Shown: piece after piece, positions 18,157 to 41,210 of the stretch | Layout: each line of letters starts with the position of its first letter | Numbering within the stretch: position 1 is the stretch's first letter | From: a virus | Length of the DNA: 43,566 nucleotides | IMG/VR virus record: IMGVR_UViG_3300036791_001012 | Location: 1 to 43,566 of that record | Strand: one strand, 5' to 3' | Notes under the pieces: generated by a model | Told to the model about the DNA's origin: nothing | Databases searched by the model: none | The model's input: the letters and a program-made list of their open reading frames with translations, nothing else | Program-made: the position numbers and the translations under genes

Positions 18157-19887
18157 TCACGCTACAGCGTGTGGACGGGCCTTGCCGCCGCCCGGCTTGA
18201 CCCCGGCGGCCGCCTGCTTCTCCTTCTCGGCCTGCTCCGCCTTCACCATCTTGCGCAGCCGGTGGATCAGCGCGTCGGCATTGGGCGGGTTGAGCATCCT
18301 GATCAGCATCTCACGATCGATCGCGTGCACCTTGTGCAGCAGCAGCGCCTGATCCTTCGACTCATCGGCAAACAGCGGCGAGTGCGAGTGCCCGGCGACG
18401 CGAATCTTGTTGCGCCGCTCCGCCACCTGCGCCGGCAGCAGTACCTGGCCGGTGTCGGTGCGCATGCGGTTGGTGGAATTGCGCTGAATCAGCTTGACCC
18501 CGATCTCCGCCAGCTTGACCAGCGATTCCTCCAGCCCCACCGCCACCTTGCGGATGCGGCCGGAGCCGGTCACCATCATCTTCTTCGCCTGCTTCTCGCC
18601 GCGCACGCCCTGCTCGCCGTGCCCCATCAGCATTTCGGTCAGGCCTGAGGCCTCAAGAAAGATCGAGCCTATTTCCCTGAACTCGTTGAACAGGTCGGGC
18701 GTCACCGGCGGCCGCAGCATCTCGACCTTGGCGTTGGGCAGCTGTTCCATCACCCAGGTGCCGGGGCCGCCAAGCGCATCGATCTTTTCGTCCGCCGTGC
18801 CCATCAGGCCGGAGCCAACCTTGGGCGGGTCGACGTTCTGCTCCAGCAGATCGGTGATCTGCTGCAGCCGCTCGTTGGTCCAGATTTGCAGCGGGATCAA
18901 TCTGTCGCTGTGACACTCACCCCAGAAGTAGTCCGGCCGCCGATAGGGAATGACCGGCACGAACGGGTGCTCCTGCTCGATGCCGAACAGGTTGGTCTGG
19001 CCGCGGTAGCGCGCGCCGATGTTCTCCGGGTCGGCCTTGCGCATCACCTCGATGGTCTGCCGCGAGTCGGAGAGCACGTCGTCGATGCCGTCGACCTTGA
19101 CGAACACCGCGTAGTCGTCGACCGCGTCGTCCCACACCCAGGTTTCGTGGAAGCGCGCCATGCGGTTTTCGGTATTGGCCTGGTAGGTGGCGCGCGGCTG
19201 GAAATCGGGCGAGGCGCGCCCCAGCATGGCGCCGCCGATATTGGGGCCGCCGGTGGCGTCGATGATCAAGGAGGTGAGGATCGGCGGCAAATCCTCGTCA
19301 TACGGCCCCGGATAGGCGCGCATTGATTTTATCTTGGAGGACAGCCCGGCGCGCTTGAGCCGCTGCACGGCGTTGTCCCAATTGAGATTGTAGGAGTGGA
19401 CGAACGCTTCCTGCGAGTCGATGTCGGGCTCGCTCTCGTCATAGACGCCGAAGGACGACGGCAGGATCAGCTTGCCGAACAGGTCGTCGCGGGCATCGTT
19501 CCAGCCCAGCTTGATGAACGAGGCCTCCAGGCCCAGGCTCCAATACACCGCATCGGCGTACATGTTGGCCAGGCCGCAGTCGCGGAAGGTCGCGTTCCAT
19601 TCGTCCTCCAGCGCCTCGATCTGCGCCATGACGCCGTCGTCGGAATTGCGCGGCGCGGCGAAGGCGTAGCGGCAGTGGTCGGCGGAGTAGAGGAACGCCG
19701 ACACCAGGTCGGTGTGCGCCTGCAGCCGGTTGTACTTCACCTCCAATGTATAATCGCTGGTGCCGTAGTCGAGAAAGCGCTTGCGGTTGAGATAGAGCAG
19801 ATCGCGGTCGCGGCGCGAGGACAGGCACACGTCGGTGATGCCGCAGACGGCGTCGTCGCGCGCGCGCTTGGAGGTGGGGATGATCAT
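18157..19887 (-). CDS. Portal protein
   Basis: 576 residues from the ATG at 19887, which overlaps the stop of the small gene before it (ATGA); a longer frame to 20010 would read through that gene. The sequence has the helical stem and wing pattern of podovirus portals (LVSAFLYSADHCRYAF; VWDDAVDDYAVFVKVDG; LIPLQIWTNERLQQITDLLEQ), with a long charged helical C-terminus (RKMVKAEQAEKEKQAAAG). It would form the dodecameric ring through which DNA is packaged and ejected. It follows the terminase by about 1.7 kb of small genes, an enlarged gap compared with simple phages. Confidence 0.85.
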   Translation of the reverse strand: MIIPTSKRARDDAVCGITDVCLSSRRDRDLLYLNRKRFLDYGTSDYTLEVKYNRLQAHTDLVSAFLYSADHCRYAFAAPRNSDDGVMAQIEALEDEWNATFRDCGLANMYADAVYWSLGLEASFIKLGWNDARDDLFGKLILPSSFGVYDESEPDIDSQEAFVHSYNLNWDNAVQRLKRAGLSSKIKSMRAYPGPYDEDLPPILTSLIIDATGGPNIGGAMLGRASPDFQPRATYQANTENRMARFHETWVWDDAVDDYAVFVKVDGIDDVLSDSRQTIEVMRKADPENIGARYRGQTNLFGIEQEHPFVPVIPYRRPDYFWGECHSDRLIPLQIWTNERLQQITDLLEQNVDPPKVGSGLMGTADEKIDALGGPGTWVMEQLPNAKVEMLRPPVTPDLFNEFREIGSIFLEASGLTEMLMGHGEQGVRGEKQAKKMMVTGSGRIRKVAVGLEESLVKLAEIGVKLIQRNSTNRMRTDTGQVLLPAQVAERRNKIRVAGHSHSPLFADESKDQALLLHKVHAIDREMLIRMLNPPNADALIHRLRKMVKAEQAEKEKQAAAGVKPGGGKARPHAVA

Positions 19888-20045
19888 TTGAGGCGCCACT
19901 TGATCCAGTCGGGGGGCTGGAAACGATCGTTCATCCGCAGCCGCTGAAACACCAGGCGCGGCTTCCAACCAATGACGATGGCACCAAAGGGTTTGCAGGC
20001 AAGCACCCACAATTGGCCACGGATCGGCAGTCGTTTGATGATCAT
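19884..20045 (-). CDS. Small hydrophobic/basic protein upstream of portal
   Basis: 53 residues, MIIKRLPIRGQLWVLACKPF. It is coupled at both ends by ATGA overlaps (20042-20045 and 19884-19887), good evidence that it is translated. A mildly hydrophobic centre (QLWVLACKPFGAIVIGW) is flanked by basic residues and the tail is Trp-rich. Too short for confident classification. Confidence 0.6.
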   Translation of the reverse strand: MIIKRLPIRGQLWVLACKPFGAIVIGWKPRLVFQRLRMNDRFQPPDWIKWRLK

Positions 20046-21597: not shown

Positions 21598-23415
21598 TCA
21601 GGACCGCCTGCTCATCATGCCCTGCCCGTGCATGTAGTTGATGGCCATCGTCTGCAGCTGGCTGGGACCGCGTCCCTCCGCCTTCGCCTGTTCCAGGGCG
21701 TAAGTCAAGCCTATGGTCGAGAGCCGGTCGCGCACCCACTTGCGCCAGGTCTCGTGCGCCAGCGCCAGCGCCATCACCCGGTCGTCCTTCTTGCCCGCCT
21801 CGGCGGCGATCGAGCCGCCGTCGATCTTCACATAGCGCATCTCCTCCAGCAGCGGCATCGAGCGCAGGATCAGCTTGCCCTGGTCGAAGGAGTCCTTCAA
21901 GCCGGCGAAGCTGGCAAACTTGTTCATTTGATTGGTCTTGGTGTGCAGCGCCGCCGTCTGCGTCAAGGTGTCGATGCGGGTGTAGAGAAACTGCCGCATC
22001 AAGGTGAGCACGAAGCGCAGATCGTAGTCGATCTTGCCGTCCGCGGTGCGATCGAACATCTTGCTGGCTTCGCGCTTGAGCAGCTGGATTTCGTTCTGCA
22101 CCGCCTCGCCGGGGCCGCTGATCTCCAGATTGTAGGTGAAGTTGCGATAGTAGCCGCCGATGTGGGCGAGCGCCCAGGCGCACTGATAGGTGGAGACGAT
22201 CGGCGTGGCGAACTCCGCCACCTGCACCAGCTTGTCGGCATAGGCGCGGCAGACGCAGATCGCGGATTGATCGGCGTCGGGGCCGGAGCCGTAGGCGGGA
22301 TCGCAGCCGATCACGTAGTGGCCGTTGGCGTCCGCCTCCTCCCAGACCCGCAGCTCGGCATTGCGGCGGTTGACGTTGGTCACCACGGTGTCGCGCCAGT
22401 GCTCGCCGAACTCGTACTTGTAGGGCATGAACGGCCGCTGCCGCGCGGCGCGCATGGTCTCGGTGATCTGCCGCGAGGCGAAGAATTGCGTGCCGGTGGC
22501 GACAAAGGCGTCCTCCTCCACCCACGGATACATCTCGTCCATCTTGCCCTGGTCGTTGAACAGCTCGCTTTCGAGCTTCCAGCGGTACCAGGCCAGCTGC
22601 TCCGGGGTGACGCTGTAACCGTAGCGCCTGGCAACGTCGTTGGCGCGCATGCGCTCCAGCCGCGTCCATGGCCCGTTGCGGCCCTTGGGCATATACTGGT
22701 CGAACTTCTCCGATCCCTCCTCGTACCGGTAGTGATCATGCCGCCACCAGCCGACGAAGATGCAGCAGACAGTCGGATCGTTCTTCCCTTCCCGCCAACG
22801 CTCCTCCCAGAAATTGAAGCCGTTGGCGGTGGTTTCTTCGATCTTGAGGCGGTGCGGATGATGCGTACTCATAGTGGCCGCGAGTTCATTGAGATCGTCT
22901 GGCGCACCCCAAAAGGCAACCTCAGTTGCGTGTATGAAATTGTTGGCCGAGGAGCGTCCGAGACCACCCTTCACCTTGTCCTTCGTCCCCGCGACGAGAT
23001 ACTGCAGCACTGAGTTGTTGCGCAGCACGATCATGTCGCGGTTTTCCTGATCCCACTTGACCCGGTGCGTGCGCGGCAGCTTGTGGAAGATCAGCTTGAT
23101 CATGTTGCGGAAGTTGGCCTTGGCCTGGTCGGTGTGGGTGACGAAGGAGCCGAGCATGCCGGCGTGCTCGAAACACCAGAACAGGTCGACGACGATGAAG
23201 AACGTCGTCATGCCGAGCTGGCGCGCCTTGAGGATCATGAAATTCGACACCCCGCGCTCGATCGCGGCGCACATCTCATCAAGCACATGGGTCTGGGTGC
23301 CGAGCAGCTGCAGCGGCACCAGGCCGAAGTCCTTGGTCTGGATATAGATGCGCGAGCAGAACTCCAGGAACTTTTCGCGCGGGAACGGGCTGAGCCTACC
23401 GGTTGGTGTCAGCAT
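21598..23415 (-). CDS. terL: Terminase large subunit
   Basis: 605 residues. Walker A-like ILKARQLGMTT at about 61-71, Walker B region NNFIHATEVAFW near 158-169 (with T-E where many families have D-E), coupling motif IEETTANG near 192-199, and the RNase H-type nuclease signature GCDPAYGSGPDADQS near 370-384 with later acidic DDRVMAL. These are the expected motifs in the right order for the packaging ATPase-nuclease that fills the capsid. The ATG at 23415 overlaps the end of the upstream gene; a GTG codon directly before it is an alternative. Confidence 0.92.
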   Translation of the reverse strand: MLTPTGRLSPFPREKFLEFCSRIYIQTKDFGLVPLQLLGTQTHVLDEMCAAIERGVSNFMILKARQLGMTTFFIVVDLFWCFEHAGMLGSFVTHTDQAKANFRNMIKLIFHKLPRTHRVKWDQENRDMIVLRNNSVLQYLVAGTKDKVKGGLGRSSANNFIHATEVAFWGAPDDLNELAATMSTHHPHRLKIEETTANGFNFWEERWREGKNDPTVCCIFVGWWRHDHYRYEEGSEKFDQYMPKGRNGPWTRLERMRANDVARRYGYSVTPEQLAWYRWKLESELFNDQGKMDEMYPWVEEDAFVATGTQFFASRQITETMRAARQRPFMPYKYEFGEHWRDTVVTNVNRRNAELRVWEEADANGHYVIGCDPAYGSGPDADQSAICVCRAYADKLVQVAEFATPIVSTYQCAWALAHIGGYYRNFTYNLEISGPGEAVQNEIQLLKREASKMFDRTADGKIDYDLRFVLTLMRQFLYTRIDTLTQTAALHTKTNQMNKFASFAGLKDSFDQGKLILRSMPLLEEMRYVKIDGGSIAAEAGKKDDRVMALALAHETWRKWVRDRLSTIGLTYALEQAKAEGRGPSQLQTMAINYMHGQGMMSRRS

Positions 23416-23665
23416 CACGCATGGCCATGTAGACCAGGCCGAGCACGTACATCAGCTGCTGCGGGTTCTTCGGATCGAAGCTGATCAGCCCGTCGCACTT
23501 GGCGTTGGGCCAGCACTGCCTGGCCAGCTCGTTGAATTTCCTGTAGCCGGCGTCGAGGATCGGCCGCGGCGGCAGCAGCACCGGCTCGGGGTCGAGCGCC
23601 TGCAGCCGCCGCCCCGAGACTTCCGGCAGCGGATCAGGGATGGTGAACGGGCCGGCGCGGGCCAT
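23396..23665 (-). CDS. Small protein preceding terminase
   Basis: 89 residues starting MARAGPFTIPDPLPEVSGRR at 23665. The last half (GYRKFNELARQCWPNAK; NPQQLMYVLGLVYMAMRDAD) is helical. It overlaps the terminase start by 20 bases. The position fits a small terminase subunit, but there is no clear HTH and the length is short, so I leave it unnamed. Confidence 0.6.
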   Translation of the reverse strand: MARAGPFTIPDPLPEVSGRRLQALDPEPVLLPPRPILDAGYRKFNELARQCWPNAKCDGLISFDPKNPQQLMYVLGLVYMAMRDADTNR

Positions 23666-24992
23666 CGGCGTTGTCTCCGCCTTGACCAATAGCAGGAGAA
23701 CGCGCCGCCGTCATCCGCGCCCTGTGCCGCTCGCCCGCCGCCTTCCATCTGTCCTTCCAGCGCTGCAGCGCCGGCCAGCCCTCCTGCACCTGGTCGGCCA
23801 GCATGGCACCGACCTGCCAATGATCGATCATGTGCTTCTTGCCGTCCCAATGCTCCTCGTCGTAGGCCTTGAGATCGAACTCGGCCAGATTGGCGTGGTG
23901 CAGCCCCGGCACGGTGATGCGCACCGCGTAGCTGTTCCAGACGAAATCCTGCAGGCCGCGGAAGTGCAGCCTGACGCCGGTCGTCTTGTCGCCGACCTGA
24001 CGTGTGTGCGGGCGCACGATGTGAAAGATGCGCTTCTTCGCTCCCGCCTGATCGATGGTGATGTCGCGATCCTTGAAGAAGTAGGCGCTGCGCCTGGCGG
24101 CGATGTTGAAGGTGGCGGTCAGCTTGTTGTTTTTCCGCACCGTCACCTTGAGCATGCCGTAGTGCGCCACCTCGAACGAATGCGTGGCGGCGGAGAACAG
24201 CCGCAGCAGATGCACCTCCGGCGTCAGGCCGTGATCGTGCGCCCAATCCTTGAAGAATTCCGGGTAGTCCCATTCGCGGCGGGTGAAGACGGTGTTGCCG
24301 TTGCGCACACCGCGGCCGCCGCCGGCGCGGCGGTTGCGTTTGCCCTTGATCTTGATCTGCTTGCTCAGCAGCATGCGCAGCGACGACACGCTGCCGTCCG
24401 GGTGGATGCAGATGCCGAACTCGGTCGGCACCCCGCGCTTGATCTTGTCGAAAACCTTGTCGCCGGGACAGTCCCAATAGGCGGTGACCGCATAGACGGC
24501 GCCGCCGTTGACCGGCTGCAGCTCGCTCGGCGCCCCGCGCACGTCGTACTTGGTGAAGTAGATCAGCCGCGGCCACATGTTTTTCTTGCTGTCGGCCCGC
24601 GGCCGCGTCCACATCACGGCACCGAAACCCGGCAGCGTCGACTTAAACCACTCGCTGATCGGCCACTCCTCATCGCACATGATGGCCGCTTCCGGCCACG
24701 GCACCAGATTGGCGCCGACCTTGGCGTACATCAGATAGGCACCGCGATCACCTTTGCGCATGCGATCGAGCAGCACGAAGTAGTCTTCCAGCTTGTCGAG
24801 AATGTCGCCGCGGAAATTGAACTCGTACTCATTCAGCGGCGCGGGGCTTGCGGCCGGTTTTTCCCTGTGCGGGGGGGACGGCAACAGAGTGTCCGCCGAC
24901 GCGCTCGCCGGCGGCGTTGAAGATGCCGCCATCGGTGACGGTAACGACGCCATCCACCGACTTCTGATCCACGCCCACAATCTTCGCAGCAT
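23634..24992 (-). CDS. Unrecognised 452-residue protein between oxygenase and terminase
   Basis: The ordered part starts at about residue 50 (LNEYEFNFRGDILDKLEDYFVLLDRMRKGD) and runs to about 420; the first 50 residues are low-complexity. It has many aromatic residues and paired strands (FGAVMWTRPRAD; MWPRLIYFTKYDVRG; AVYAVTAYWDCPGD). I place the start at ATG 24992 with AAAGGGA upstream, giving a 164-base overlap with the oxygenase gene in another frame. No family recognised. Single-copy position just before terminase suggests a virion or packaging-related protein. Confidence 0.65.
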   Translation of the reverse strand: MLRRLWAWIRSRWMASLPSPMAASSTPPASASADTLLPSPPHREKPAASPAPLNEYEFNFRGDILDKLEDYFVLLDRMRKGDRGAYLMYAKVGANLVPWPEAAIMCDEEWPISEWFKSTLPGFGAVMWTRPRADSKKNMWPRLIYFTKYDVRGAPSELQPVNGGAVYAVTAYWDCPGDKVFDKIKRGVPTEFGICIHPDGSVSSLRMLLSKQIKIKGKRNRRAGGGRGVRNGNTVFTRREWDYPEFFKDWAHDHGLTPEVHLLRLFSAATHSFEVAHYGMLKVTVRKNNKLTATFNIAARRSAYFFKDRDITIDQAGAKKRIFHIVRPHTRQVGDKTTGVRLHFRGLQDFVWNSYAVRITVPGLHHANLAEFDLKAYDEEHWDGKKHMIDHWQVGAMLADQVQEGWPALQRWKDRWKAAGERHRARMTAARSPAIGQGGDNADGPRRPVHHP

Positions 24993-26034
24993 GTCCGTCC
25001 CTTTCGAGGTTCCACAGCAGCGACAGTTGCCTCCACTTCTCCAGGCTTCCTTGATCCTCCAGGTTGGCACATTCGATCAGGCACAGGGCGCGCGCCGTCG
25101 CCTGATCGACAACGAACGAGGCATTGTGCGTACAACGCAGCATGAAGCTGTGATCCATGGCCAGATGCGCGGCGATCCGCTCCAGCTCCACCGGGCGATC
25201 TAATATGGAAAAGTTGTAGGCCAGCTCCTCGGCTTCGCGGCCCCATTCGCCGGCGACAGCTGCGCGCGCGAAAGGGTTGGCATCAGAGAGGCGCTGTTTG
25301 AATGCATTCGTGCCGTATATCGCGTGCAGCCCGCCGCCGACACAGACCGCAGCAGGTAGGTTGCGCCCTGCGAGTAGCTGGTAGACCCGCATAAGATGAT
25401 CGTGCAGTGTGCCGCTGGCGTGCTCATGCTGGAGTGCTCCGTACCGCACCAGCCAGGACGACAGGTGCTCGAATCCAGCGCTGCGCTGCTGGCGGAATTT
25501 CAGCACCAGCACCAGGCGCAGCAGGTTGCATTTGCGCGACAGCGAGGCGGCGCGGTGCCACAGGTTGGAGGGCAGGATCATGGCGCGGTTGGGAGCGGGC
25601 CGCGCCGCCCAGATGCGCTCGCCGCGCCAGGCCAGGGTCTCGCCGCCCCAATCCGGGTGCCACTGGTCGCAGAGGAAGATGATGCAGGTCCATTCCTGCT
25701 CGCGCGCCGAGTCGGTGTGGGCGTAGCCGTCCAGGCCGTAGCTGTAGCCGTTCACATAGGCGCGCAGCAGCTTGAACGGCCCGTAGGCACCGACGTGCAT
25801 GCGGGTGCGCACGAACTCCCAGGCCTGCTTGAACAGCAGCGGCATCGAGGCGTCGCTCAGGTCGGCCAGATTCTGCTGCTCATCGTGCAGCGGCTTGTAG
25901 GACAGGTGCCCGTGCGGGTCGGTCTGGCTGTTGGACTTGCTGCCGTAGGAGAGCGGCATCTCCTTGCCGGCGAAGACCAGCAGCCGATCGAACAGCTGCT
26001 GGGGCAGGAAGTTGTTGATGACCAGCGGGTCCAT
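24829..26034 (-). CDS. 2-oxoglutarate/Fe(II) oxygenase fused to an HD-like C-terminal domain
   Basis: 401 residues. The N-terminal half is a prolyl 4-hydroxylase-like double-stranded beta helix: HTD at 106-108, distal H160 in SNLWHRAA and R173 in LLRLVLVLKF, the iron and 2-oxoglutarate ligands. The second half (about 205-330: GTLHDHLMRVYQLL...VGGGLHAIYGTNAF...) has the HD..H..H pattern of an HD-like fold resembling DUF6817-type domains. The start overlaps the preceding stop as TGATG. Such fusions are seen in phages; the substrate is unknown. Oxidative modification of a protein, lipid or nucleotide is possible. Confidence 0.75.
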   Translation of the reverse strand: MDPLVINNFLPQQLFDRLLVFAGKEMPLSYGSKSNSQTDPHGHLSYKPLHDEQQNLADLSDASMPLLFKQAWEFVRTRMHVGAYGPFKLLRAYVNGYSYGLDGYAHTDSAREQEWTCIIFLCDQWHPDWGGETLAWRGERIWAARPAPNRAMILPSNLWHRAASLSRKCNLLRLVLVLKFRQQRSAGFEHLSSWLVRYGALQHEHASGTLHDHLMRVYQLLAGRNLPAAVCVGGGLHAIYGTNAFKQRLSDANPFARAAVAGEWGREAEELAYNFSILDRPVELERIAAHLAMDHSFMLRCTHNASFVVDQATARALCLIECANLEDQGSLEKWRQLSLLWNLERDGHAAKIVGVDQKSVDGVVTVTDGGIFNAAGERVGGHSVAVPPAQGKTGRKPRAAE

Positions 26035-26255
26035 CAGTGAAACCCGTCGATGAAGCGCCGCGCCTCGTCCACGCTCCACATGTGACCACCGATCAGCAGC
26101 ATGCCGCCCATATACATGGCTGGATGATTCTTCAGCTCGGGATGCTTGTTGAGGTCGGACATCATCGATGCCAGCGCATTGGCGATATCGCCGTCGTCAA
26201 GATACTCGTGCGCCTGCTGCTTGCACCAGTCGAGATGCTGCTCGCGCGTCCTCAT
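26034..26255 (-). CDS. Conserved small phage protein (LDWCKQQAHEYLDDGD type)
   Basis: 73 residues. REQHLDWCKQQAHEYLDDGDIANALASMMSDLNKHPE...MYMGGMLLIGGHM...EARRFIDGF matches a small protein very common in phages of proteobacteria, function unknown. ATGA overlap with the upstream gene and TGATG overlap with the downstream oxygenase gene support translation. Confidence 0.75.
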   Translation of the reverse strand: MRTREQHLDWCKQQAHEYLDDGDIANALASMMSDLNKHPELKNHPAMYMGGMLLIGGHMWSVDEARRFIDGFH

Positions 26256-30325: not shown

Positions 30326-30606
30326 CAGGCACACCTCCCACCAAAACGAGACCAGGGGTGGAGAGACCAAGCAGGCCACAACGTCCGTCAGTTACATGTC
30401 AACGTTGTTTCAGCGGCTGACGACCCACTCAACTGAATGGCCTCTCCAACAACCTCTATACACTTTTTTTCCTGGGAGGGGGAAGGATGGGGCGCCGGCG
30501 CTGGTCGGTCGCGACCCCAGCGCCCTGAGCCCGCGTGCGCGCGCCCCGGGGGTACCCCTCCCCCCCCCAATGGCTGTCTGACAACCGGTACGGACATGGG
30601 TAGAAA

Positions 30607-30731
30607 TCAACCAACAACCAATCACCCAACGATATCAATGCATGATAGCGGACATAGTATCCGACACGGCGTTCTGACAACCATCTGCGGGGGAGAATGA
30701 CGACCAACCAACAACCAACCAACAACCAAAC
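30607..30731. repeat. CCAACAACCAA iterons
   Basis: CAACCAACAACCAA at about 30607-30620 is repeated as ACCAACCAACAACCAACCAACAACCAA at about 30702-30728, with the same short CCAAC/ACCAA units. Such unstructured direct repeats often bind initiator proteins. Their role as iterons is inferred. Confidence 0.45.
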
Positions 30732-30791
30732 AGTGCGGGGAGGGAACGATTTGTTTGCTCCGCTTTCTCTCCATCCGCGCTGGCGATACCG

Positions 30792-30843
30792 GATCACGGG
30801 ACGACTGTGGGCATCGCTGTGAGGCTATTGTCGCCCCGTGATC
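30792..30843. promoter_or_regulatory. 14-bp imperfect inverted repeat (13 of 14 pairs)
   Basis: GATCACGGGACGAC at 30792-30805 and GTCGCCCCGTGATC at 30830-30843 pair in 13 of 14 positions with a 24-base loop. No T-run follows. An operator, origin hairpin or transcript structure is possible. Confidence 0.45.
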
Positions 30844-31006
30844 GCGGCTCTTGCAGCGGCCACGGCTCGGGCTCGGCAGGGGCTCACAAAGACTGAGGAC
30901 CACGAATCGGGACCGCGACGCGCGACAGTGGGCGATTACCTGAAAACCGTGTCAAGACAATTCTCAAGTCATTGATCGCATTGGGCTCTAATGCGCGGGA
31001 TTATGG

Positions 31007-31051
31007 AACATTGTTACTATATAACAGCCGATTGCCCGCAACATTGTTGCG
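31007..31051. promoter_or_regulatory. Paired AACATTGTT operator-like palindromes, 33 bp apart
   Basis: The palindromic core AACATTGTT is centred at 31011 and again at 31044, where it extends to a 15-bp perfect palindrome (CGCAACATTGTTGCG at 31037-31051). The 33-bp centre distance is about three helical turns, so bound dimers would face the same side of the DNA. A TATATAAC sequence lies between them. These look like operators for one of the HTH proteins encoded here. Confidence 0.5.
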
Positions 31052-31153
31052 CGGCGGGTGCGGACTTGTGCGGATCATTCCGGTTTTTTACGCTATGAAG
31101 GTGCTTCATCCATGGCTATACTCTGATCATCAAGAACGGAGGTGCTGCAACGG

Positions 31154-31240
31154 ATGACACACTGCCAGGCCCCGCGGGGAGCGCCGCAAGAGCGGACAAA
31201 GCGCGGGGTCGAGGACACGGCCGCAAGGCCGCGCTGCTGA
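31154..31240 (+). CDS. Possible 28-residue leader ORF
   Basis: MTHCQAPRGAPQERTKRGVE and eight more residues follow a GGAGG eleven bases upstream of the ATG. It lies in the leader of the rightward operon and covers a GCAA-loop hairpin. It may be a leader peptide or chance; the distance from the ribosome site is long. Confidence 0.25.
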   Translation: MTHCQAPRGAPQERTKRGVEDTAARPRC

Positions 31241-31253
31241 CTTGATTGTCAGC
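31218..31253 (+). promoter_or_regulatory. Intercistronic hairpins, cassette 1
   Basis: CGGCC-GCAA-GGCCG at 31218-31231 and GCTGAC-TTGATT-GTCAGC at 31236-31253 precede GAGGACACC, the GAAAGGA ribosome site and the 31284 gene. The GAGGACAC sequence also appears just before the first hairpin. Confidence 0.55.
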
Positions 31254-31283
31254 GCCGAGGACACCCACCCGAAAGGAAGCACC

Positions 31284-31433
31284 ATGAACAGGAAATACCT
31301 GGTCCAGAAGATGACCTTCGACGCCACGCGCCCCTACGCGGTCGTGGCAACATTCCGCACCTTCAATCGAGTCGTTGCTCGCTACTCAACCGAGGAACAA
31401 GCAAAGCGCCGCGCCCGCGATCTTAACCGCTGA
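31284..31433 (+). CDS. Small basic early protein
   Basis: 49 residues, MNRKYLVQKMTFDATRPYAVV...EEQAKRRARDLNR. GAAAGGAAGCACC precedes the ATG. It ends with a basic helix. No family recognised. First credible gene of the rightward operon. Confidence 0.6.
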   Translation: MNRKYLVQKMTFDATRPYAVVATFRTFNRVVARYSTEEQAKRRARDLNR

Positions 31434-31446
31434 CGATCTTCAATCG

Positions 31447-31490
31447 GGTGTCCTCTGCGCTGACAATCGTTTGTCAGCACAGAGGACACC
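31447..31490 (+). promoter_or_regulatory. Strong intercistronic hairpin, cassette 2
   Basis: GGTGTCCTCTGCGCTGACA and TGTCAGCACAGAGGACACC pair at 18 of 19 positions with a six-base loop; GAAAGGAA follows within three bases. No U-tract follows, so it looks like a processing, stabilising or translational element rather than a terminator. Confidence 0.7.
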
Positions 31491-31506
31491 GTGAAAGGAA
31501 ATGCCA

Positions 31507-31788
31507 ATGTCACGCAAACTGCAAATCAAAAACGCTGCAATCGTCTACCAGGGTGGCATCGCCAACGTGTTCAACATGGGCGAGGCCGATGTTCTGCGCA
31601 TACAGCGATTGTTGCAAGCCGATTTTCACACCTGCGAAAGCTACATCCGCGGCCTGATCGCCGCCGGAACATCGGTGCGCGTCTACAGCTGCAACAAAGC
31701 CGGCGACATTGCCAATGCACAATGGACGCACGGCCTTGCCGATTGTCCGTTTCGCGAATCGACCAAGGCAATCGAAACCATCGACTGA
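31507..31788 (+). CDS. Conserved phage early protein (YQGGIANVF type)
   Basis: 93 residues, MSRKLQIKNAAIVYQGGIAN...FNMGEADVLRIQRLL...AGDIANAQWTHGLADCPFRE. Similar small proteins with YQAGIANVF-like cores are frequent in phages but have no known role. I chose ATG 31507 over 31501 because its spacing from GAAAGGA equals that of its neighbours. Confidence 0.7.
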   Translation: MSRKLQIKNAAIVYQGGIANVFNMGEADVLRIQRLLQADFHTCESYIRGLIAAGTSVRVYSCNKAGDIANAQWTHGLADCPFRESTKAIETID

Positions 31789-31802
31789 ACATCAATCAAA
31801 CA

Positions 31803-31832
31803 GGTGTCCTCTGTGCTGGCAATCCTGCCGGC
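31803..31832 (+). promoter_or_regulatory. Intercistronic hairpin, cassette 3
   Basis: The left arm GGTGTCCTCTGTGCTG is nearly identical to cassette 2 (15 of 16 bases), but here the stem is the local GCTGGCA-ATCC-TGCCGGC (31815-31832, one G-U pair). GAAAGGGAAAA follows. The shared arm shows the cassettes are related copies. Confidence 0.6.
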
Positions 31833-31854
31833 TTCCTTCGAAAGGGAAAACCAG

Positions 31855-31992
31855 ATGCGATACGTAGCGCACCTTGTCGCCTTGCTCCACATCGGCGCGG
31901 CCATCGAATTGGCCGATGGTTTCGTGATCGTGTGCGACACCGCCGAATGGGTCAAGCACCTCGCTATTCACCTGCTCGAATGGTGGAGGTAG
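31855..31992 (+). CDS. Small early protein
   Basis: 45 residues, MRYVAHLVALLHIGAAIELA then DGFVIVCDTAEWVKHLAIHLLEWWR. Partly hydrophobic, possibly peripheral to membrane. Preceded by GAAAGGGAAAACCAG. Confidence 0.55.
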   Translation: MRYVAHLVALLHIGAAIELADGFVIVCDTAEWVKHLAIHLLEWWR

Positions 31993-31996
31993 CCAC

Positions 31997-32068
31997 ATGG
32001 CAACCCTGTTCATCGCATTGTTGTTGTTTGCCTGGGCGTACATCGCCGCCGTTGGCATACGCTCCTAG
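31997..32068 (+). CDS. 23-residue hydrophobic microprotein
   Basis: MATLFIALLLFAWAYIAAVG then IRS. One membrane helix with a basic end. GGAGG lies seven bases before the ATG, overlapping the end of the previous gene. Too short for most gene finders; the ribosome site argues for translation. Confidence 0.5.
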   Translation: MATLFIALLLFAWAYIAAVGIRS

Positions 32069-32083
32069 GGTCTATCGGTCGGG

Positions 32084-32125
32084 GGCACGCCGCTTGCGTG
32101 CCTCTCCCGATGCACCCGAGTGCAT
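32084..32125 (+). promoter_or_regulatory. Intercistronic hairpins, cassette 4
   Basis: GGCACGC-CGCTT-GCGTGCC (32084-32102) and ATGCAC-CCGA-GTGCAT (32110-32125) stand between the 23-residue gene and the GAAAGGGAAACC ribosome site of the next gene. Confidence 0.55.
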
Positions 32126-32148
32126 CCTATCCTCGAAAGGGAAACCAA

Positions 32149-32361
32149 ATGTCGAAGCATCATGACGTGTTCAAGTCGCATGTCCTCAAGATCGCCCGCG
32201 CCGTCGAAAAGATGCCGGACGCGATCAATAACGCCTTGGGCGGCATATCGAAGGATGAGGCCCGCAAGATGATCGCCGACTACAAGCGAGCCTGCCGTCA
32301 TCCCAAGCGCTACCGTACCGGCGCCGTGCCGGACCGCAACGAAGATTGCGGGATTGATTGA
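32149..32361 (+). CDS. Small basic helical early protein
   Basis: 70 residues, MSKHHDVFKSHVLKIARAVE...ISKDEARKMIADYKRACRHPKRYRTG. Basic and helical; function unknown. GAAAGGGAAACCAA precedes the start. Its stop codon lies in the base of the next hairpin. Confidence 0.6.
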   Translation: MSKHHDVFKSHVLKIARAVEKMPDAINNALGGISKDEARKMIADYKRACRHPKRYRTGAVPDRNEDCGID

Positions 32362-32401
32362 TGGCCTGGGCGGGCGCCGCGGCGCCCGCACGGGGCATCA
32401 A
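32358..32401 (+). promoter_or_regulatory. Very stable intercistronic hairpin, cassette 5
   Basis: TTGATG/CATCAA outer arms (containing the upstream TGA stop) and a GC-only inner stem GCGGGCGCC/GGCGCCCGC form one long hairpin. GAAAGGAAGACAAG follows. No U-tract, so termination is not suggested. Confidence 0.65.
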
Positions 32402-32430
32402 ATCGATGCCTGAAGCGAAAGGAAGACAAG

Positions 32431-32697
32431 ATGCCGAGCATGTTCCAACAGAGGCATTTCGAGGCCATGGCTTCGATGATGCAACAAAACTTTCCCAAGC
32501 ACGGCGACAAGATACTGACGCATGAGGCCTACTGGCAACAGATTGTCGGTGCGCTTGTGGACGTGTTCAAGCAAAGCAACCCGCATTTCGACGAGTCGCG
32601 GTTTCGTGCCGCTTGCGTGCCGGGCGCCAATGTCCGTGCCCGCAACAATCAATCAGGTCCGGCCATGCCGTACGTAACTCCGCGGGTGACCCGATGA
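32431..32697 (+). CDS. Small early protein
   Basis: 88 residues, MPSMFQQRHFEAMASMMQQN...WQQIVGALVDVFKQSNPHFDESRFRAACVPG. Helical first part with a basic tail. Probably folded; unknown family. Preceded by GAAAGGAAGACAAG. The next gene overlaps its stop (ATGA). Confidence 0.6.
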   Translation: MPSMFQQRHFEAMASMMQQNFPKHGDKILTHEAYWQQIVGALVDVFKQSNPHFDESRFRAACVPGANVRARNNQSGPAMPYVTPRVTR

Positions 32698-32966
32698 CCT
32701 ACAACGGTTGGAAGAATTGGGAGACCTGGAATGTTGCACTGTGGTGCGACAACGAAGAATCGATCTACCACGAACGCATGCGGCAACAGCCACGCACCGC
32801 GCAAGAGGTGGAGGACTTCGTGCGTGAATGGTTTCCCGAGGGAACGCCGGATTGGAAGATCGAAGACGATCCATACGGCGCCCGCGAGGCCGTCGACTGG
32901 AGCGAAATCGCCGACCATTGGTCGGAGGACTACAAGCAGGACGAGGAGGACGAAACGGCCGCATAG
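32694..32966 (+). CDS. Conserved phage protein (NGWKNWETWNVALW type)
   Basis: 90 residues. The YNGWKNWETWNVALWCDNEE start matches a small protein (a DUF7249-like type, unsure) found in very many phages; the rest is acidic (SEDYKQDEEDETAA). ATGA-coupled to the previous gene, and its stop falls in the loop of the following hairpin. Function unknown. Confidence 0.7.
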   Translation: MTYNGWKNWETWNVALWCDNEESIYHERMRQQPRTAQEVEDFVREWFPEGTPDWKIEDDPYGAREAVDWSEIADHWSEDYKQDEEDETAA

Positions 32967-32991
32967 CGGCCGTCGCACCGTCAAGCGGTGC
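32955..32991 (+). promoter_or_regulatory. Intercistronic hairpins, cassette 6
   Basis: ACGGCCGC-ATA-GCGGCCGT (32955-32973) holds the previous gene's TAG stop in its loop; GCACCG-TCAAG-CGGTGC (32975-32991) follows, then GAAAGGATACCAG. Repeats the pattern before every gene here. Confidence 0.6.
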
Positions 32992-33019
32992 CTGAAGAGT
33001 CCAAACGAAAGGATACCAG

Positions 33020-33295
33020 ATGAGTAGCTATCGACCCATGGTCAAGGTGCAGGGCGATTGGGCCGGCAACGGTCTGCGCTTTGCCACCGAGAAGGAAGCG
33101 CTCGACAACGCGCATGCGTTGGCGATGCGCTGGTTTGCTGTCGAGGACTATCGCGCCGAGGCGTCGCCCGATCCAGTCAATTATACCTGGACGGACGGCA
33201 GGCTCGACTCGGTGCTCCCCGCCGGAGTCGTGGCGGTGCCGCTGGAAGACCCGGCGACGCTCCACAACGCGATCAAGGATGCCGTAGGCGAGTGA
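33020..33295 (+). CDS. Conserved phage early protein (FATEKEAL type)
   Basis: 91 residues. SSYRPMVKVQGDWAGNGLRF...ATEKEALDNAHALAMRWFAVEDYRAEASPDPVNYTW is a widely shared small phage fold with no known function. GAAAGGATACCAG precedes ATG. Confidence 0.7.
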   Translation: MSSYRPMVKVQGDWAGNGLRFATEKEALDNAHALAMRWFAVEDYRAEASPDPVNYTWTDGRLDSVLPAGVVAVPLEDPATLHNAIKDAVGE

Positions 33296-33306
33296 CCGCG
33301 GCCTGG

Positions 33307-33348
33307 GAGGGTGGGGCAACCCACCCTCACGGGGCACGATCCTGTGCC
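33307..33348 (+). promoter_or_regulatory. Intercistronic hairpins, cassette 7
   Basis: GAGGGTGGG-GCAA-CCCACCCTC (33307-33328) is a perfect 9-bp stem closed by a stable GNRA tetraloop; GGCAC/GTGCC (33333-33348) follows, then GAAAGGGAAATACG. Confidence 0.65.
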
Positions 33349-33365
33349 GACGAAAGGGAAATACG

Positions 33366-33602
33366 ATGCCCGAATACAACGACTATCCGATCGAGGAATG
33401 CGCGGCCACGGCCGCGCCCTATGTCGCCAGAGGCGCAACCTTCTTTCAGAAGTTCACCTGCGCCAGATGCGGCAGCCGGCAGACCTGCGACGAACCCAAC
33501 AAATTCTTCAAGACCGCCGCGTGCGAGGCTTGCGGTCACGTGACCGACATCGCCAGGCAAGGCTGCAACTACATGCTCGCCTTCGATATCGGCGGGGGCT
33601 GA
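33366..33602 (+). CDS. Zinc-ribbon-like early protein
   Basis: 78 residues. The CARCGSRQTCDEPNKFFKTA...ACEACGHVTDIARQGC pattern is a probable zinc ribbon (Cys 32, 35 and 53, 56). Likely nucleic-acid or protein binding. Preceded by the cassette ribosome site. Confidence 0.7.
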   Translation: MPEYNDYPIEECAATAAPYVARGATFFQKFTCARCGSRQTCDEPNKFFKTAACEACGHVTDIARQGCNYMLAFDIGGG

Positions 33603-33603
33603 C

Positions 33604-33690
33604 ATGATGACAATCATTTTTGCCGCGGCCTTTCTGTCGCTGTGGGCCTGGTTGCTGTGGCAGGACGAAAAGAACGACCGCCGACCGTAG
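33604..33690 (+). CDS. 28-residue membrane microprotein
   Basis: MMTIIFAAAFLSLWAWLLWQ then DEKNDRRP. A single hydrophobic helix with a charged tail, one base after the stop of the zinc-ribbon gene. The ORF starts with two ATGs and may be coupled to it. No own ribosome site is clear. Confidence 0.45.
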   Translation: MMTIIFAAAFLSLWAWLLWQDEKNDRRP

Positions 33691-33696
33691 CGCTCC

Positions 33697-33736
33697 GCGC
33701 CCGCCCCGGCGGGCGCTTTGCGGTGCGATCCGCACC
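33697..33736 (+). promoter_or_regulatory. Intercistronic hairpins, cassette 8
   Basis: GCGCCCGCC-CC-GGCGGGCGC (33697-33716) followed by TTTG and GGTGCG-ATC-CGCACC (33722-33736). The next gene begins 104 bases on, with GAAAGGAAACCGACAG. The first could act as a weak terminator, but U-run is short. Confidence 0.55.
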
Positions 33737-33840
33737 ACTTCACCGGGCTCGCGAGTTAGCTACGCCAGGATTTTCAGATCGTGGAAGGAACGGCGAGTTT
33801 GCTGCGTGAGTAATTTGAAAACACGAAAGGAAACCGACAG

Positions 33841-34146
33841 ATGCAAGAGCACTTTCTCAGCGACATGCTGGCCCAGCTGCTGGCCGATACCCTGATCGAG
33901 ACGGCACGCAAAGACGGCGTACCGCTCAAGGTCTTCATCAAGGCGGTGCGCAGGATCGAAGCCGGCTTCTCCGCTGACGCAGAGATGCAGGCCAGGATCG
34001 AGCGCGTCCTGGCCAAGCCCGACCCGCCGCGTTGGTGGGAGGAGCTGGCAACGGAACTCACCGAAAAGCTGCGGCGGCGACGGGAGCAGGAAGACGTCAA
34101 GCCCGCCGATCCGCTGGGGCCGGCGCCGACCACGTTCAAAGTCTGA
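33841..34146 (+). CDS. Early charged protein
   Basis: 101 residues, MQEHFLSDMLAQLLADTLIE...GFSADAEMQARIERVLAKPDPPRWWEELATELTEKL. Strongly helical, with a proline-rich end. No family recognised. Preceded by GAAAGGAAACCGACAG. Confidence 0.6.
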   Translation: MQEHFLSDMLAQLLADTLIETARKDGVPLKVFIKAVRRIEAGFSADAEMQARIERVLAKPDPPRWWEELATELTEKLRRRREQEDVKPADPLGPAPTTFKV

Positions 34147-34151
34147 GAACG

Positions 34152-34162
34152 CGCCAAAGGCG
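34152..34162 (+). promoter_or_regulatory. Small intercistronic hairpin, cassette 9
   Basis: CGCC-AAA-GGCG at 34152-34162 precedes GAAAGGAGCAACCA of the next gene. It is the shortest member of the series. Confidence 0.4.
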
Positions 34163-34177
34163 TGAAAGGAGCAACCA

Positions 34178-34561
34178 ATGCAACAAGACCACAAGCAACG
34201 CGGGCGCGACATCCAGGCCCAGCTCGCCGACTACACGGTGCCGCGCTCGACCTGGATCGGGCGCGGCACCAGTGCCACCGAGACGCTGTACCGCGCCGAG
34301 GAGCGGCGCTCGATCGCCATCAAGGACTGTGCCCGCGCCTGGGGCAAGGTGATGGACATCGATGTGGGCACCGGCGGCACGCCGTTCTGGAACATCGCCG
34401 TGCCGCAGGCCCTGCTCGATACCCTGGAGGCATTCGAGACCGCTGCCGCCGCAGTGGCCGCCGAGGCCTTCCTGGTGCAGCTGGGCTACAAGGTCGAGCG
34501 GCCGAGCGGCCCTGCCGGCGCCATCGAGGAGCCGGCGCGGAGCCGTGCGGCGGGGCCATGA
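34178..34561 (+). CDS. Early protein of unknown function
   Basis: 127 residues, MQQDHKQRGRDIQAQLADYT...LGYKVERPSGPAGAIEEPARSR. A compact start and Ala-rich middle. Couples into the HTH gene by ATGA. No known domain. Confidence 0.6.
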   Translation: MQQDHKQRGRDIQAQLADYTVPRSTWIGRGTSATETLYRAEERRSIAIKDCARAWGKVMDIDVGTGGTPFWNIAVPQALLDTLEAFETAAAAVAAEAFLVQLGYKVERPSGPAGAIEEPARSRAAGP

Positions 34562-34848
34562 GCCCCGCCGTCTTCCGCTCCCTCATGCGCGAGCTGGGTC
34601 TCACGCATGGCGGTACCATGGCGGCCGAGCTGCTCGGCGTGAGCAACCGGCAAATCTTCTACTACCTGGCCGGCACCCACGCGGTGCCGGCCACGGTGGC
34701 CAACATCCTGCACCTGCTGCTGATGCTGCGGGCCGTATCGCTGCCGCCGGAGGCGGTGGCGGTGGCGCTGGAGTTGCGGCCCGATTTCGAGGGGTTGGCG
34801 GACTTCTACGCCGCCAACCCACGCGATGCCCCGCTCGGCAGCGATTGA
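34558..34848 (+). CDS. Cro/CI-like helix-turn-helix protein
   Basis: 96 residues. GGTMAAELLGVSNRQIFYYLAGTHAVPATVANILHLLLML at about 19-58 fits the HTH of phage Cro/CI-type regulators. It closes the rightward early operon before a terminator, a usual place for a regulator acting on that operon. Its operators could be the AACATTGTT sites, but this is not established. Confidence 0.7.
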   Translation: MSPAVFRSLMRELGLTHGGTMAAELLGVSNRQIFYYLAGTHAVPATVANILHLLLMLRAVSLPPEAVAVALELRPDFEGLADFYAANPRDAPLGSD

Positions 34849-34854
34849 GGGGTG

Positions 34855-34888
34855 CCCCGGGGACTTAAACCCCGGGGTTAACTCTTTT
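34855..34888. terminator. Probable bidirectional terminator
   Basis: CCCCGGGG-ACTTAAA-CCCCGGGG is a perfect stem with a TTAACTCTTTT tract following on the plus strand. It separates the plus operon ending at 34848 from the minus operon ending at 34887. Confidence 0.65.
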
Positions 34889-35348
34889 ATCCCCCATCAC
34901 CACCGTTGATGATCTCGCGCAGGCGGGCGTCGACCTGGGCCACGAAGGCCGAGGTCTCCGCCGAGAAGGCGAAGTAGTTGCCGTGCTCGCGCTTCATGAT
35001 CTCCGCGCCCTGCTTGATCTGATCCTTGATCTGCAGAATGCGCTCAACCAGTTGATCCAATTCGTTGAGATGATAGGCGACCACGTCGTCGATCGCCTGC
35101 TCGATCTGCCTGCGCAAGGTGTGCGCCGCCCCGTCAGGGTCGCCAGTGGCCAGCTTGGGCGCCACCCCATCGACATCCGGCAGCAACGCGGCCGAGGGCT
35201 GCTGGTCGTAGCCCACATGCCGTTGGCCCGCCGTCGCATCGAGCTGGGCGGCCGGCGGCAGGCTGCGGAAACGGCCGCGATCGTCGCGCGAGCTACGCTG
35301 CCCGATGTCGTCGATTTCCTCTTGAATATCGCGTTCCTGGTCAGGCAT
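34887..35348 (-). CDS. Helical protein of the replication-side operon
   Basis: 153 residues. The first 50 are disordered (DIQEEIDDIGQRSSRDDRGR), then a coiled coil (HTLRRQIEQAIDDVVAYHLN, QLVERILQIKDQIKQGAEIM). Last gene of the operon. Unknown function; overlaps the HNH-like gene by eight bases. Confidence 0.65.
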   Translation of the reverse strand: MPDQERDIQEEIDDIGQRSSRDDRGRFRSLPPAAQLDATAGQRHVGYDQQPSAALLPDVDGVAPKLATGDPDGAAHTLRRQIEQAIDDVVAYHLNELDQLVERILQIKDQIKQGAEIMKREHGNYFAFSAETSAFVAQVDARLREIINGGDGG

Positions 35349-35607
35349 TTGGGGTTCCTTTCTGATGCTCTACTTGATGACAAGGGCGGCACAACCACTG
35401 CACCTGCAGTGGCTTGCTGTAGTCCTTATGATGCATTTCGGTTTTTCCTGCCCCGCACTGGCAGCGCTCGGGGACCAACAACCCCCGCCGCTTGTAGACC
35501 CCCGCGTAGCTACGGGTGATGTCCTTGCGTCGCGCCTCTGCGCTCAGTGGGTGGGTTTTCCGCCACTGTCGCATGTAAACCGCCTGATACCGCTGGGAGA
35601 GTTTCAC
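35341..35607 (-). CDS. Small HNH-like zinc protein
   Basis: 88 residues from GTG 35607 with GGAGG seven bases upstream. ERCQCGAGKTEMHHKDYSKP then LQVQWLCRPCHQVEH shows CxC...HH...WLCxxCH, the pattern of small HNH-type phage nucleases and related zinc fingers. The catalytic HH is present. A nuclease or DNA-binding role is likely; length is shorter than typical HNH packaging enzymes. Confidence 0.65.
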   Translation of the reverse strand: MKLSQRYQAVYMRQWRKTHPLSAEARRKDITRSYAGVYKRRGLLVPERCQCGAGKTEMHHKDYSKPLQVQWLCRPCHQVEHQKGTPNA

Positions 35608-35681
35608 GTGCCAACCTCCGCCTGAAGTCGCAAATCGGACGCTTCGGACAGGAACTCCGGTCTCGATTCGTTCTCCGAATC

Positions 35682-35969
35682 TTACACCTCACTTTCGAGC
35701 CCGAGCCGCTCGGCGATGGCGCCGGCGCCGCGGTGTCTACCTTCCACCCATGCGGCCAGGGCGTCGCCCAGCGTCGACTTCAGGGCAAAATGGTCGCTGT
35801 CGCGATGCCGCATCACCATCGGCTCGCCTAAATCCCTGCCAGGATCGGCGGCAAGCCGCCGCGCGGCCTCCAGGAATGGATTTGCGGTGGGGCCGGCTAT
35901 CACCCTACCCTGGAACTCGGCAAGCCACTGGCCGGCCGCGGCGGCGGGATAGACGATGACCTCGATCAT
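35682..35969 (-). CDS. Early hypothetical protein
   Basis: 95 residues from ATG 35969 (ATGA overlap). MIEVIVYPAAAAGQWLAEFQ...FLEAARRLAADPGRDLGEPMVMRHRDSDHFALKSTLGDA. Folded-looking; no family recognised. Confidence 0.6.
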   Translation of the reverse strand: MIEVIVYPAAAAGQWLAEFQGRVIAGPTANPFLEAARRLAADPGRDLGEPMVMRHRDSDHFALKSTLGDALAAWVEGRHRGAGAIAERLGLESEV

Positions 35970-36736
35970 GACCCCACCCCCGGCCGTGGTGGGGCATTCG
36001 GCAGCGCGTCCCATTGCTCCTGGGTCAGGCCGAATTTCGCACGCACGCTCTCCGGCGTCTCGTTGTGGGGCTTGCCACCGTTGCGGGCCTTCCAGCCGGA
36101 CATGTAGATGCCGCGGCTGGCCATCTCGTCCTCGATCTCGTGGATGGTCTGCTTGCCTTCCCCCCTGGCCGCCGCGTTCAAGTCCTCACGGACTCGACCG
36201 GTATCATAAGGGCGGGTTCGGCCCTCCTCGAACACGCCGATCGGCCGCCCGTAGATTTTCACCGCCTCGGCATAATTGGACAGAATAGTGCCCGGCGGAT
36301 GCTTGCCGTCCGGCCCCGGTGCCGGGTCAGCCGGCCGCGGCTGCGCCGAGGCGCGCATCTCCCGCTCGCGTTCCATCCGCTCGCGCAGCTGGACTTTCGA
36401 GCGGGCATTGTACTCGTCGATGTAGCGCCGCGGCCGCATCTGCTCCTCGCAGAAGCAGCGCACGTCGTAGGGCGTCGGCGTGGTGTTCTGCTTCGACGGC
36501 AGGCCGGTGAAGGGATCGCAGCAGTGCTCGACGATGTCGAGCGGATAGCGCAGGAAGATGCCGATGATGGCGGTGGCGAAGGCCTGTGAGTCAACTCCCG
36601 GCCTGGTGGGGAAGAATTTCAATAGCCTTCCCGTCAACGCCACCACGATCTCGCGCGCCGGCGGCGAGCCACTCCCGGGTTTCGCGCCACTCGCGTTGCT
36701 GCCTGTTCCACTCCGATTCTGGTCGCTGGTATCCAT
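35966..36736 (-). CDS. Replication-associated protein candidate
   Basis: 256 residues. The ordered core is about 30-90 (REIVVALTGRLLKFFPTRPG...IIGIFLRYPLDIVEHCCDPF...PTPYDVRCFCEEQMRPRR) followed by a long charged helix and a C-terminal domain. It follows the probable initiator gene and may be a helicase-loader-like factor, but no decisive motif was found. The first 146 bases overlap the upstream gene in another frame; AAGGACAGGCACAAA precedes the ATG. Confidence 0.6.
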   Translation of the reverse strand: MDTSDQNRSGTGSNASGAKPGSGSPPAREIVVALTGRLLKFFPTRPGVDSQAFATAIIGIFLRYPLDIVEHCCDPFTGLPSKQNTTPTPYDVRCFCEEQMRPRRYIDEYNARSKVQLRERMEREREMRASAQPRPADPAPGPDGKHPPGTILSNYAEAVKIYGRPIGVFEEGRTRPYDTGRVREDLNAAARGEGKQTIHEIEDEMASRGIYMSGWKARNGGKPHNETPESVRAKFGLTQEQWDALPNAPPRPGVGS

Positions 36737-39977: not shown

Positions 39978-40156
39978 AAAAATTCGGCATCATCGCCGTC
40001 GCGCGCTATGCGCGCTCACCGGCGGATCATCGGCGGGCGGCAGCGGAGCGCGAGCGCAAGGGCGACCCCACCCGCTGCAGCACGCCGCCACGCGGGACAT
40101 CGCTGCCGCAATGGCGCATCGACCTGGGTGGGGTACCGCCGCGAGCGCCGAAATGA
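39974..40156 (+). CDS. Small basic protein before exonuclease
   Basis: 60 residues, MKKFGIIAVARYARSPADHR...AAAERERKGDPTRCSTPPRG. Basic and disordered-looking. ATGA overlaps at both ends. Unknown. Confidence 0.6.
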   Translation: MKKFGIIAVARYARSPADHRRAAAERERKGDPTRCSTPPRGTSLPQWRIDLGGVPPRAPK

Positions 40157-40944: not shown

Positions 40945-41210
40945 AGATGAAATCTCCGAAGCTGCAGGCGCTGTTCGGCCATCTCGATCCGAGCATCGAG
41001 GGCCAGATCGTCGTCTATGACAAGCATGTGGCGATCGAGCTGAAGGAGCCGATGGACTCGCTGTGCATGCCGCCGCGCACCGCACTGCGCCTGGCCTTGG
41101 GCTTGCTGCAGGCGGCGCGGGTCGCCGGCGCCACCGACGCCGACCTGGCCGAGGTGTTGTTGAAAAGTAATTTCCCGATTGTGGAGGAAGACGATGAAGC
41201 GCAAGACTAA
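40941..41210 (+). CDS. Recombination operon accessory protein
   Basis: 89 residues, MKMKSPKLQALFGHLDPSIE...VAIELKEPMDSLCMPPRTALRLALGLLQAARV...FPIVEEDDEAQD. Position between exonuclease and annealase suggests involvement in recombination. No family recognised. Confidence 0.65.
   Translation: MKMKSPKLQALFGHLDPSIEGQIVVYDKHVAIELKEPMDSLCMPPRTALRLALGLLQAARVAGATDADLAEVLLKSNFPIVEEDDEAQD

Follow-up and report, generated by a model that had tools for sequence, protein, structure and literature searches.

The early operon of the virus record IMGVR_UViG_3300036791_001012, a stretch of 43.6 kilobases (kb; 43,566 nucleotides, nt) analysed at its full length and called here the window, is made up of translation units that contain a single gene or two coupled genes, and most units are parted by a structured RNA module that follows a stop codon and precedes the next Shine-Dalgarno (SD) site. 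The leaders of these units are a mixture of a hammerhead-like RNA, a conserved element family that appears to be new, similar leaders with two alternative folds, and a hairpin of 20 base pairs (bp) with two decayed copies. From sequences and predicted folds we propose, with about even confidence, that the modules are interchangeable intercistronic processing or insulation points that would leave each unit with a 5' hairpin. An earlier sequence-only reading of this DNA had suggested hairpin-based control of the processing, stability or translation of each cistron; that idea survives, and what has to be given up is the notion of one repeated cassette.

The operon (31284-34848; its genes are named here by their start positions) has two kinds of junction. 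Coupled junctions, with a gap of at most 4 nt or an overlap, are without elements, and at wide junctions (53-149 nt, plus the 31-nt gap before gene 34178) a new unit starts with hairpins and an SD site, some of the RNA elements being decayed or weak. The sequence-only reading had placed a hairpin before each of nine genes. When 75-nt leaders were folded and compared with shuffled controls, this held for five of the nine, which are strongly structured (z -7.8 for 31507, -4.4 for 32149, -5.9 for 32431, -3.6 for 33020 and -2.9 for 33366); the other four are weighed below. At the minus-strand GAAAGG site 27959, where a hairpin had likewise been claimed, the upstream structure is no more than that of shuffles (z -0.6), and the same is true of minus-strand site 1086 (z -0.1). 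Two stop codons do lie inside structures as described, the UGA of gene 32149 (32359-32361) within the outer stem of the 32431 leader and, in a loop of the leader before gene 33020, a UAG (32964-32966).

The hairpins are not simple terminators, a candidate role rejected since they lack U-tracts, as had been noticed, and one terminator stands at the operon end. No intrinsic terminator is predicted at the hairpins, no plus-strand U-tract terminator exists inside the operon, and the strong one that closes it is the only plus-strand terminator-like site within 30400-36000. These observations also bear on attenuators combined with processive antitermination, comparable to the RNA sites of some lambdoid phages. 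Double hairpins repeated in an early operon are what such a system might look like, yet the missing U-tracts, the sole terminator at the far end and the presence of elements in every wide gap rather than near a promoter make it very improbable.

All nine starts (31284, 31507, 31855, 32149, 32431, 33020, 33366, 33841 and 34178) have GAAAGG(A/G) just upstream, as the sequence-only reading stated, and the window holds 14 copies of the pattern GAAAGGRN{3,8}ATG, where shuffled sequence would give 0.68. GAAAGG is best read as a strong SD site because it can pair with CCUUUC, the complement present in many proteobacteria at the 3' end of 16S ribosomal RNA (rRNA). Its membership in the RNA element was rejected, as in other phages the element goes with different SD sequences. 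Several leaders contain CCU(U)CGAAAGG (31836-31850 and 32129-32143 in the window, and leaders in G001, G018 and G021; G and L numbers are our handles), which by its sequence may form a mini-hairpin partly masking the SD site.

Relatives were pulled from viral metagenomes by means of terminase and capsid and duplicates were dropped, leaving roughly twelve distinct genomes or genome fragments that share the gene order of the window phage. A common plan, outer stem-GGCCU(G/A)NG-hairpin-CNYGGGGC-outer stem, is found in the leaders of genes 32431 and 33366 as well as in leaders of G001, G002 and G027. R1, a model from five seeds, picked up a further pair of leaders in G027, at E 4e-4 and E 0.0016; its match to a leader in G021 is weak (E 0.18). 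A second model, R2, adds a copy in G036 (31.8 bits, E 1.5e-4; next best in 0.69 megabases, Mb, 17.8 bits), where stop codon, outer stem, motif, hairpin B (described below) and an SD site with ATG follow in this order. The two window members are seeds of R1/R2, so that they score with their own models by construction. Pattern scans and the model further reached at least L204 (three copies), L364 (two), L169 and L192, contigs that do not belong to the terminase- and capsid-based set; L204 resembles L364 and L169 resembles L192, and the distribution, taken among the matches listed, is a lower bound. The family comprises 12 seeds and one later match, spread over several phage groups. In the members read, the element is oriented with the downstream gene and lies at or shortly after the upstream stop codon; the TGA of gene 33020 (33293-33295), for instance, marks the edge of the second window member.

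Conserved stems with compensatory changes, for which the sequence-only reading had advised looking in related genomes, are present. In the 12-member alignment 88.7% of cells pair, both sides have changed in 44 cells (15.0 +/- 3.1 in shuffles), and covariation reaches 0.605 against 0.182 +/- 0.031 in shuffles; slid controls give at most 0.14, in a comparison that favours the structure, drawn as it was from some of the alignment members. A U.G wobble is conserved in 11 of the 12 members, together with other RNA-type pairs. No Rfam 15 covariance model matches either window member at E up to 5, nor the other carriers searched, and this second family of elements beside the hammerhead-like RNA appears to be new. 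Weak Rfam matches (mir-599, MIR4371, SECIS_2, IRES_Bip, Methylosinus-1 and fluoride) fall below threshold and have no meaning here. Loci in bacterial genomes picked up by the primary pattern attain, among the matches listed, at most 26.6 bits with either model and were treated as chance; R2 run over 369 genomes gave no match among the best 15 candidates per genome, which shows little. The integron attC core RYYYAAC...GTTRRRY was not seen when the leaders were read by eye, a check made without a pattern search.

The outer stem of the new family competes with a second structure. Its 3' arm doubles as the 5' arm of a hairpin upstream of the SD site, hairpin B, so that the two are mutually exclusive, and most members carry B. 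When this arm was fixed and the sequence downstream shuffled, 11 of 19 elements had an observed hairpin B that beat the controls at p<0.05, with a combined p of 1.5e-11 that is indicative only, the test regions being hand-set and several elements related. RNAfold folds 11 of the 13 full elements into the long hairpin without B; when the stop codon and 5' arm are masked, it predicts B or a near equivalent; SD sites are largely unpaired in the predicted folds. A translation-coupled switch might use such a pair of folds: a terminating ribosome would melt the outer stem, B would form, and initiation or decay of the next gene would change with no cutting. The many members with a stop codon at or in the outer stem suit this scheme, as does the exchange of long hairpin for B upon masking; its output is missing, however, as the SD site is not clearly sequestered in either fold, and the hammerhead-like and 31447 leaders are left unexplained. 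We consider it unlikely.

The elements are independent of the genes that they precede. Among the proteins compared, those encoded after family members are not homologous to each other, and the leaders of the orthologues G001 6230 and G027 31178 (57%) differ; these findings led us to reject a gene-specific riboswitch. The same facts would agree with cassette boundaries acting at the DNA level, palindromes used by recombination to shuffle small early genes, with RNA folds being incidental, and the duplicated arms at 31244, 31447 and 31803 point the same way. The conserved wobble and other RNA-type pairs, the orientation shared with the downstream gene, the placement between stop codon and SD site and the ribozyme core in the same kind of slot all speak for RNA instead, which renders this explanation improbable; gene shuffling may be a by-product. 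The int-alpA RNA (RF02996) is found above threshold in two related phages (L095 5200-5298, minus strand, in G021; L098 16081-16171, plus strand, in G022). The G021 copy stands directly before a GAAAGGAAACAAACATG start, so that a known structured RNA is also found in leader position.

The leader of gene 33020 contains a candidate type II hammerhead ribozyme. Rfam model RF02276 matches 32948-33010 with 29.5 bits (E 0.0033 against all of Rfam, 1.0e-5 alone), and we speak of a candidate because this score is below the Rfam gathering threshold of 37 bits. A strict descriptor and reading of the sequence find the core complete, with CUGANGA, GAAA, A15.1-U16.1, H17 at the cleavage site and G10.1-C11.1, and the minimum free energy structure is the hammerhead three-way junction (-29.0 kcal/mol), with loops on stems I and III and an open stem II. 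This is the one match of the strict descriptor in the window; elsewhere in the 7.15 Mb scanned it matched only L036, L037 and overlapping loci, and it gave 0 matches in 35 Mb of dinucleotide shuffles. L036 and L037 are phage contigs fetched as carriers of DUF7249 homologues. The window RNA is predicted to cut between C32974 and G32975, which would leave a message starting with the hairpin GCACCG-UCAAG-CGGUGC and reaching CGAAAGGAUACCAG-AUG.

Among the remaining leaders (Table 1), the 31447 hairpin is, to judge from its sequence, a possible substrate for a double-strand ribonuclease (RNase). Its left arm has the near-identical counterpart at 31803 that had been pointed out; this copy kept the left arm, lost the right one and holds a small hairpin at 31815-31832. 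The right arm is copied at 31244-31266 (23 nt, 96% match to the 31446-31468 arm), in the leader of gene 31284, whose second short hairpin is GCTGAC-TTGATT-GTCAGC (31236-31253). Two decayed neighbours are the pattern expected from leader duplication, and the 31447 hairpin was not seen in the other loci compared. The 32149 leader follows the plan of the new family without the GGCCU motif: after the TAG (32066-32068) of a 23-amino-acid open reading frame (ORF) come an outer stem UAUCGG/CCGAUG, an inner hairpin, and a hairpin B (32109-32126) that reuses the outer stem's 3' arm. The hairpin pair starting at 33687 overlaps and follows the TAG of a 28-amino-acid ORF (33604-33691), about 100 nt upstream of gene 33841; its hairpin B alone is not significant (p 0.22), and RNAfold favours the two-hairpin fold.

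If the modules are processing points, the transcript would be cut between an upstream hairpin A and the downstream hairpin B. Hairpin A would become or protect the 3' end of the preceding message, and hairpin B would become the 5' hairpin of the next, shortly before its SD site. For modules other than the hammerhead, the cutting would fall to an RNase III-like double-strand RNase of the host or to another activity, and the products would presumably be protected, separately translated messages. In the new family, hairpin B would be set free in either of two ways, by a ribosome that terminates at the stop codon or by cleavage of the long hairpin. A hammerhead, a 20-bp hairpin and a bistable long hairpin, each cut between A and B, would give the same kind of product, and this most simply explains why slots of one kind hold structures unrelated to each other. 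The stem length of the modules, about 17-20 bp, fits RNase III processing sites and is not diagnostic.

Several observations weigh against processing. Four of the nine leaders have no clear excess of structure over shuffles (z -1.5 for 31284, -1.8 for 31855, -1.8 for 33841 and +0.3 for 34178). In the new family a G.G mismatch and the GGCCU/GGGGC strands hardly vary, which goes beyond what a generic RNase III substrate needs, and some members have no hairpin B (L364b, L204c). As to the hammerhead candidate, its score is below threshold, no hammerhead was found in the related phages, and the pseudoknot between loop I and the 3' tail, present in L036/L037, is missing, the best pairing being 3 nt against 5 in those two; this pseudoknot occurs in the majority, not all, of type II hammerheads (PMC3088659). 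Uncut insulators would be an alternative: intact hairpins would block exonucleases and keep SD sites clear of upstream structure and translation, letting the units initiate independently. Strong GC-rich stems between stop codon and SD site, the largely unpaired SD sites and the indifference of the elements to gene identity are all in keeping with it, whereas a hammerhead core has no purpose without cleavage, and a generic barrier explains neither the near-invariant strands nor the conserved alternative hairpin B; we find this explanation rather doubtful. A further idea, a long shot in our estimation, is that the GGCCUGGG-hairpin-CACGGGGC element, with hairpin B as its competitor, is a self-cleaving RNA of a new class that takes the place of the hammerhead, which a neighbouring gap holds at an equivalent position. 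If it were true, at least two kinds of ribozyme would serve the phage in cutting its early transcript.

Table 1. Features of the window and hammerheads of two further contigs; z values compare folding with shuffles.
Feature	Position	Strand or direction	Evidence or context
New-family member before gene 32431	32356-32410	+	R1 + R2 seed; covariation; z -5.9
New-family member before gene 33366	33293-33348	+	R1 + R2 seed; covariation; z -2.9
Type II hammerhead ribozyme candidate, between DUF7249 gene and gene 33020	32948-33002	+	
Hairpin of 20 bp, one mismatch, between genes 31284 and 31507	31447-31490	+	arms 95% complementary; z -7.8
Two short hairpins before gene 31284, decayed element	31218-31253	+	z -1.5, not significant
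Partial copy of 31447 element, before gene 31855	31803-31832	+	86% over 29 nt; z -1.8
Element before gene 32149	32073-32126	+	z -4.4; hairpin B p 0.0025; alternative folds
Strong hairpins forming a pair of similar plan, within 149-nt gap upstream of gene 33841	33687-33736	+	inner stem of 9 bp; read by eye
Small hairpin before gene 34178	34149-34163	+	z +0.3, no excess structure
Nine GAAAGGR SD sites	31271, 31493, 31840, 32135, 32417, 33007, 33352, 33825, 34164 (span 31271-34169)	+	
Intrinsic terminator-like site, operon end	34854-34878	+	9-bp GC-rich stem + T-run
DUF7249 gene (PF23907)	32694-32966	+	Pfam
Major capsid	15396-16403	-	late
Portal region	18157-20010	leftward	late
Terminase	21601-23418	leftward	late
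RecE-like exonuclease	at 40111	rightward	early
Erf-like protein	at 41179	rightward	early
Type II hammerheads in L036 and L037	L036 4785-4840; L037 4582-4637		above Rfam threshold; right after TAA stop, upstream of DUF7249 gene

The early genes of the window run rightward and the late genes leftward. For the relatives, terminase identity is 55-67% and capsid identity 86-93%, an unusual contrast. The early region has no near relative among the named phages and plasmids searched, and to our knowledge the phage family is known from metagenomes only, with no host found. A run of CCAACCAACAACCAA-type repeats lies at 30605-30733, upstream of the early operon. Inside the operon, the YNGWKNWETWN stretch of the DUF7249 gene is 91% identical at the DNA level to cyanophage S-SKS1 over 45 bp, unusually high for phages so distant. 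The protein encoded at 24832-26079 (minus strand) matches 'DNA endonuclease V' in PHROGs and a 2OG-Fe(II) oxygenase plus DUF6817 in Pfam; the PHROGs name may be wrong.

Phage T7 has RNase III processing sites between its early genes, and irregular hairpins separate early-operon cistrons in both systems; here cutting is predicted, and sequence conservation is stronger than a double-strand RNase needs. In cluster K mycobacteriophages, the start-associated sequence (SAS) is a 13-bp motif at the start codons of non-structural genes, about half of the copies having an upstream inverted repeat (PMC3203893). The likeness lies in a short motif at start codons; no kinship to this partial precedent of the sequence-only reading was found, the 13-bp GGGATAGGAGCCC being absent from the window even with up to 2 mismatches, and the extended SAS (ESAS) is one 17-bp sequence family per genome where the window has elements of several kinds. 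Theta ribozymes, similar to that of hepatitis delta virus (HDV), are self-cleaving, tRNA-associated RNAs of gut phages that process transcripts (PMC10879173). They resemble the present case as phage-encoded self-cleaving RNAs for processing and differ in fold and in their association with tRNAs, and no Rfam match to them was obtained in window 31100-34300.

Another of the closest known systems is formed by the type II hammerheads (RF02276) clustered around single prophage genes. Perreault et al. (2011, PMC3088659) demonstrated cleavage in vitro and, for some, in Escherichia coli, and suggested that these ribozymes divide long phage transcripts into messages of one gene each. Core, topology, setting between small phage genes and proposed role are the same; in contrast to the prophage clusters, the window has one hammerhead-like RNA, below the Rfam threshold and without the pseudoknot, and its other gaps differ in structure. 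In published descriptions, what hammerheads do in phage genomes is still an open question. A hammerhead-like RNA amid other elements before unrelated genes points to a shared task of separating cistrons rather than to gene-specific regulation. Other self-cleaving motifs were discovered by comparative genomics around hammerhead-associated genes, and for that reason the element described here is a reasonable candidate for a new processing RNA. While hammerheads around single prophage genes were already known, the alignments add an element family that has no Rfam entry and is strongly supported by compensatory changes.

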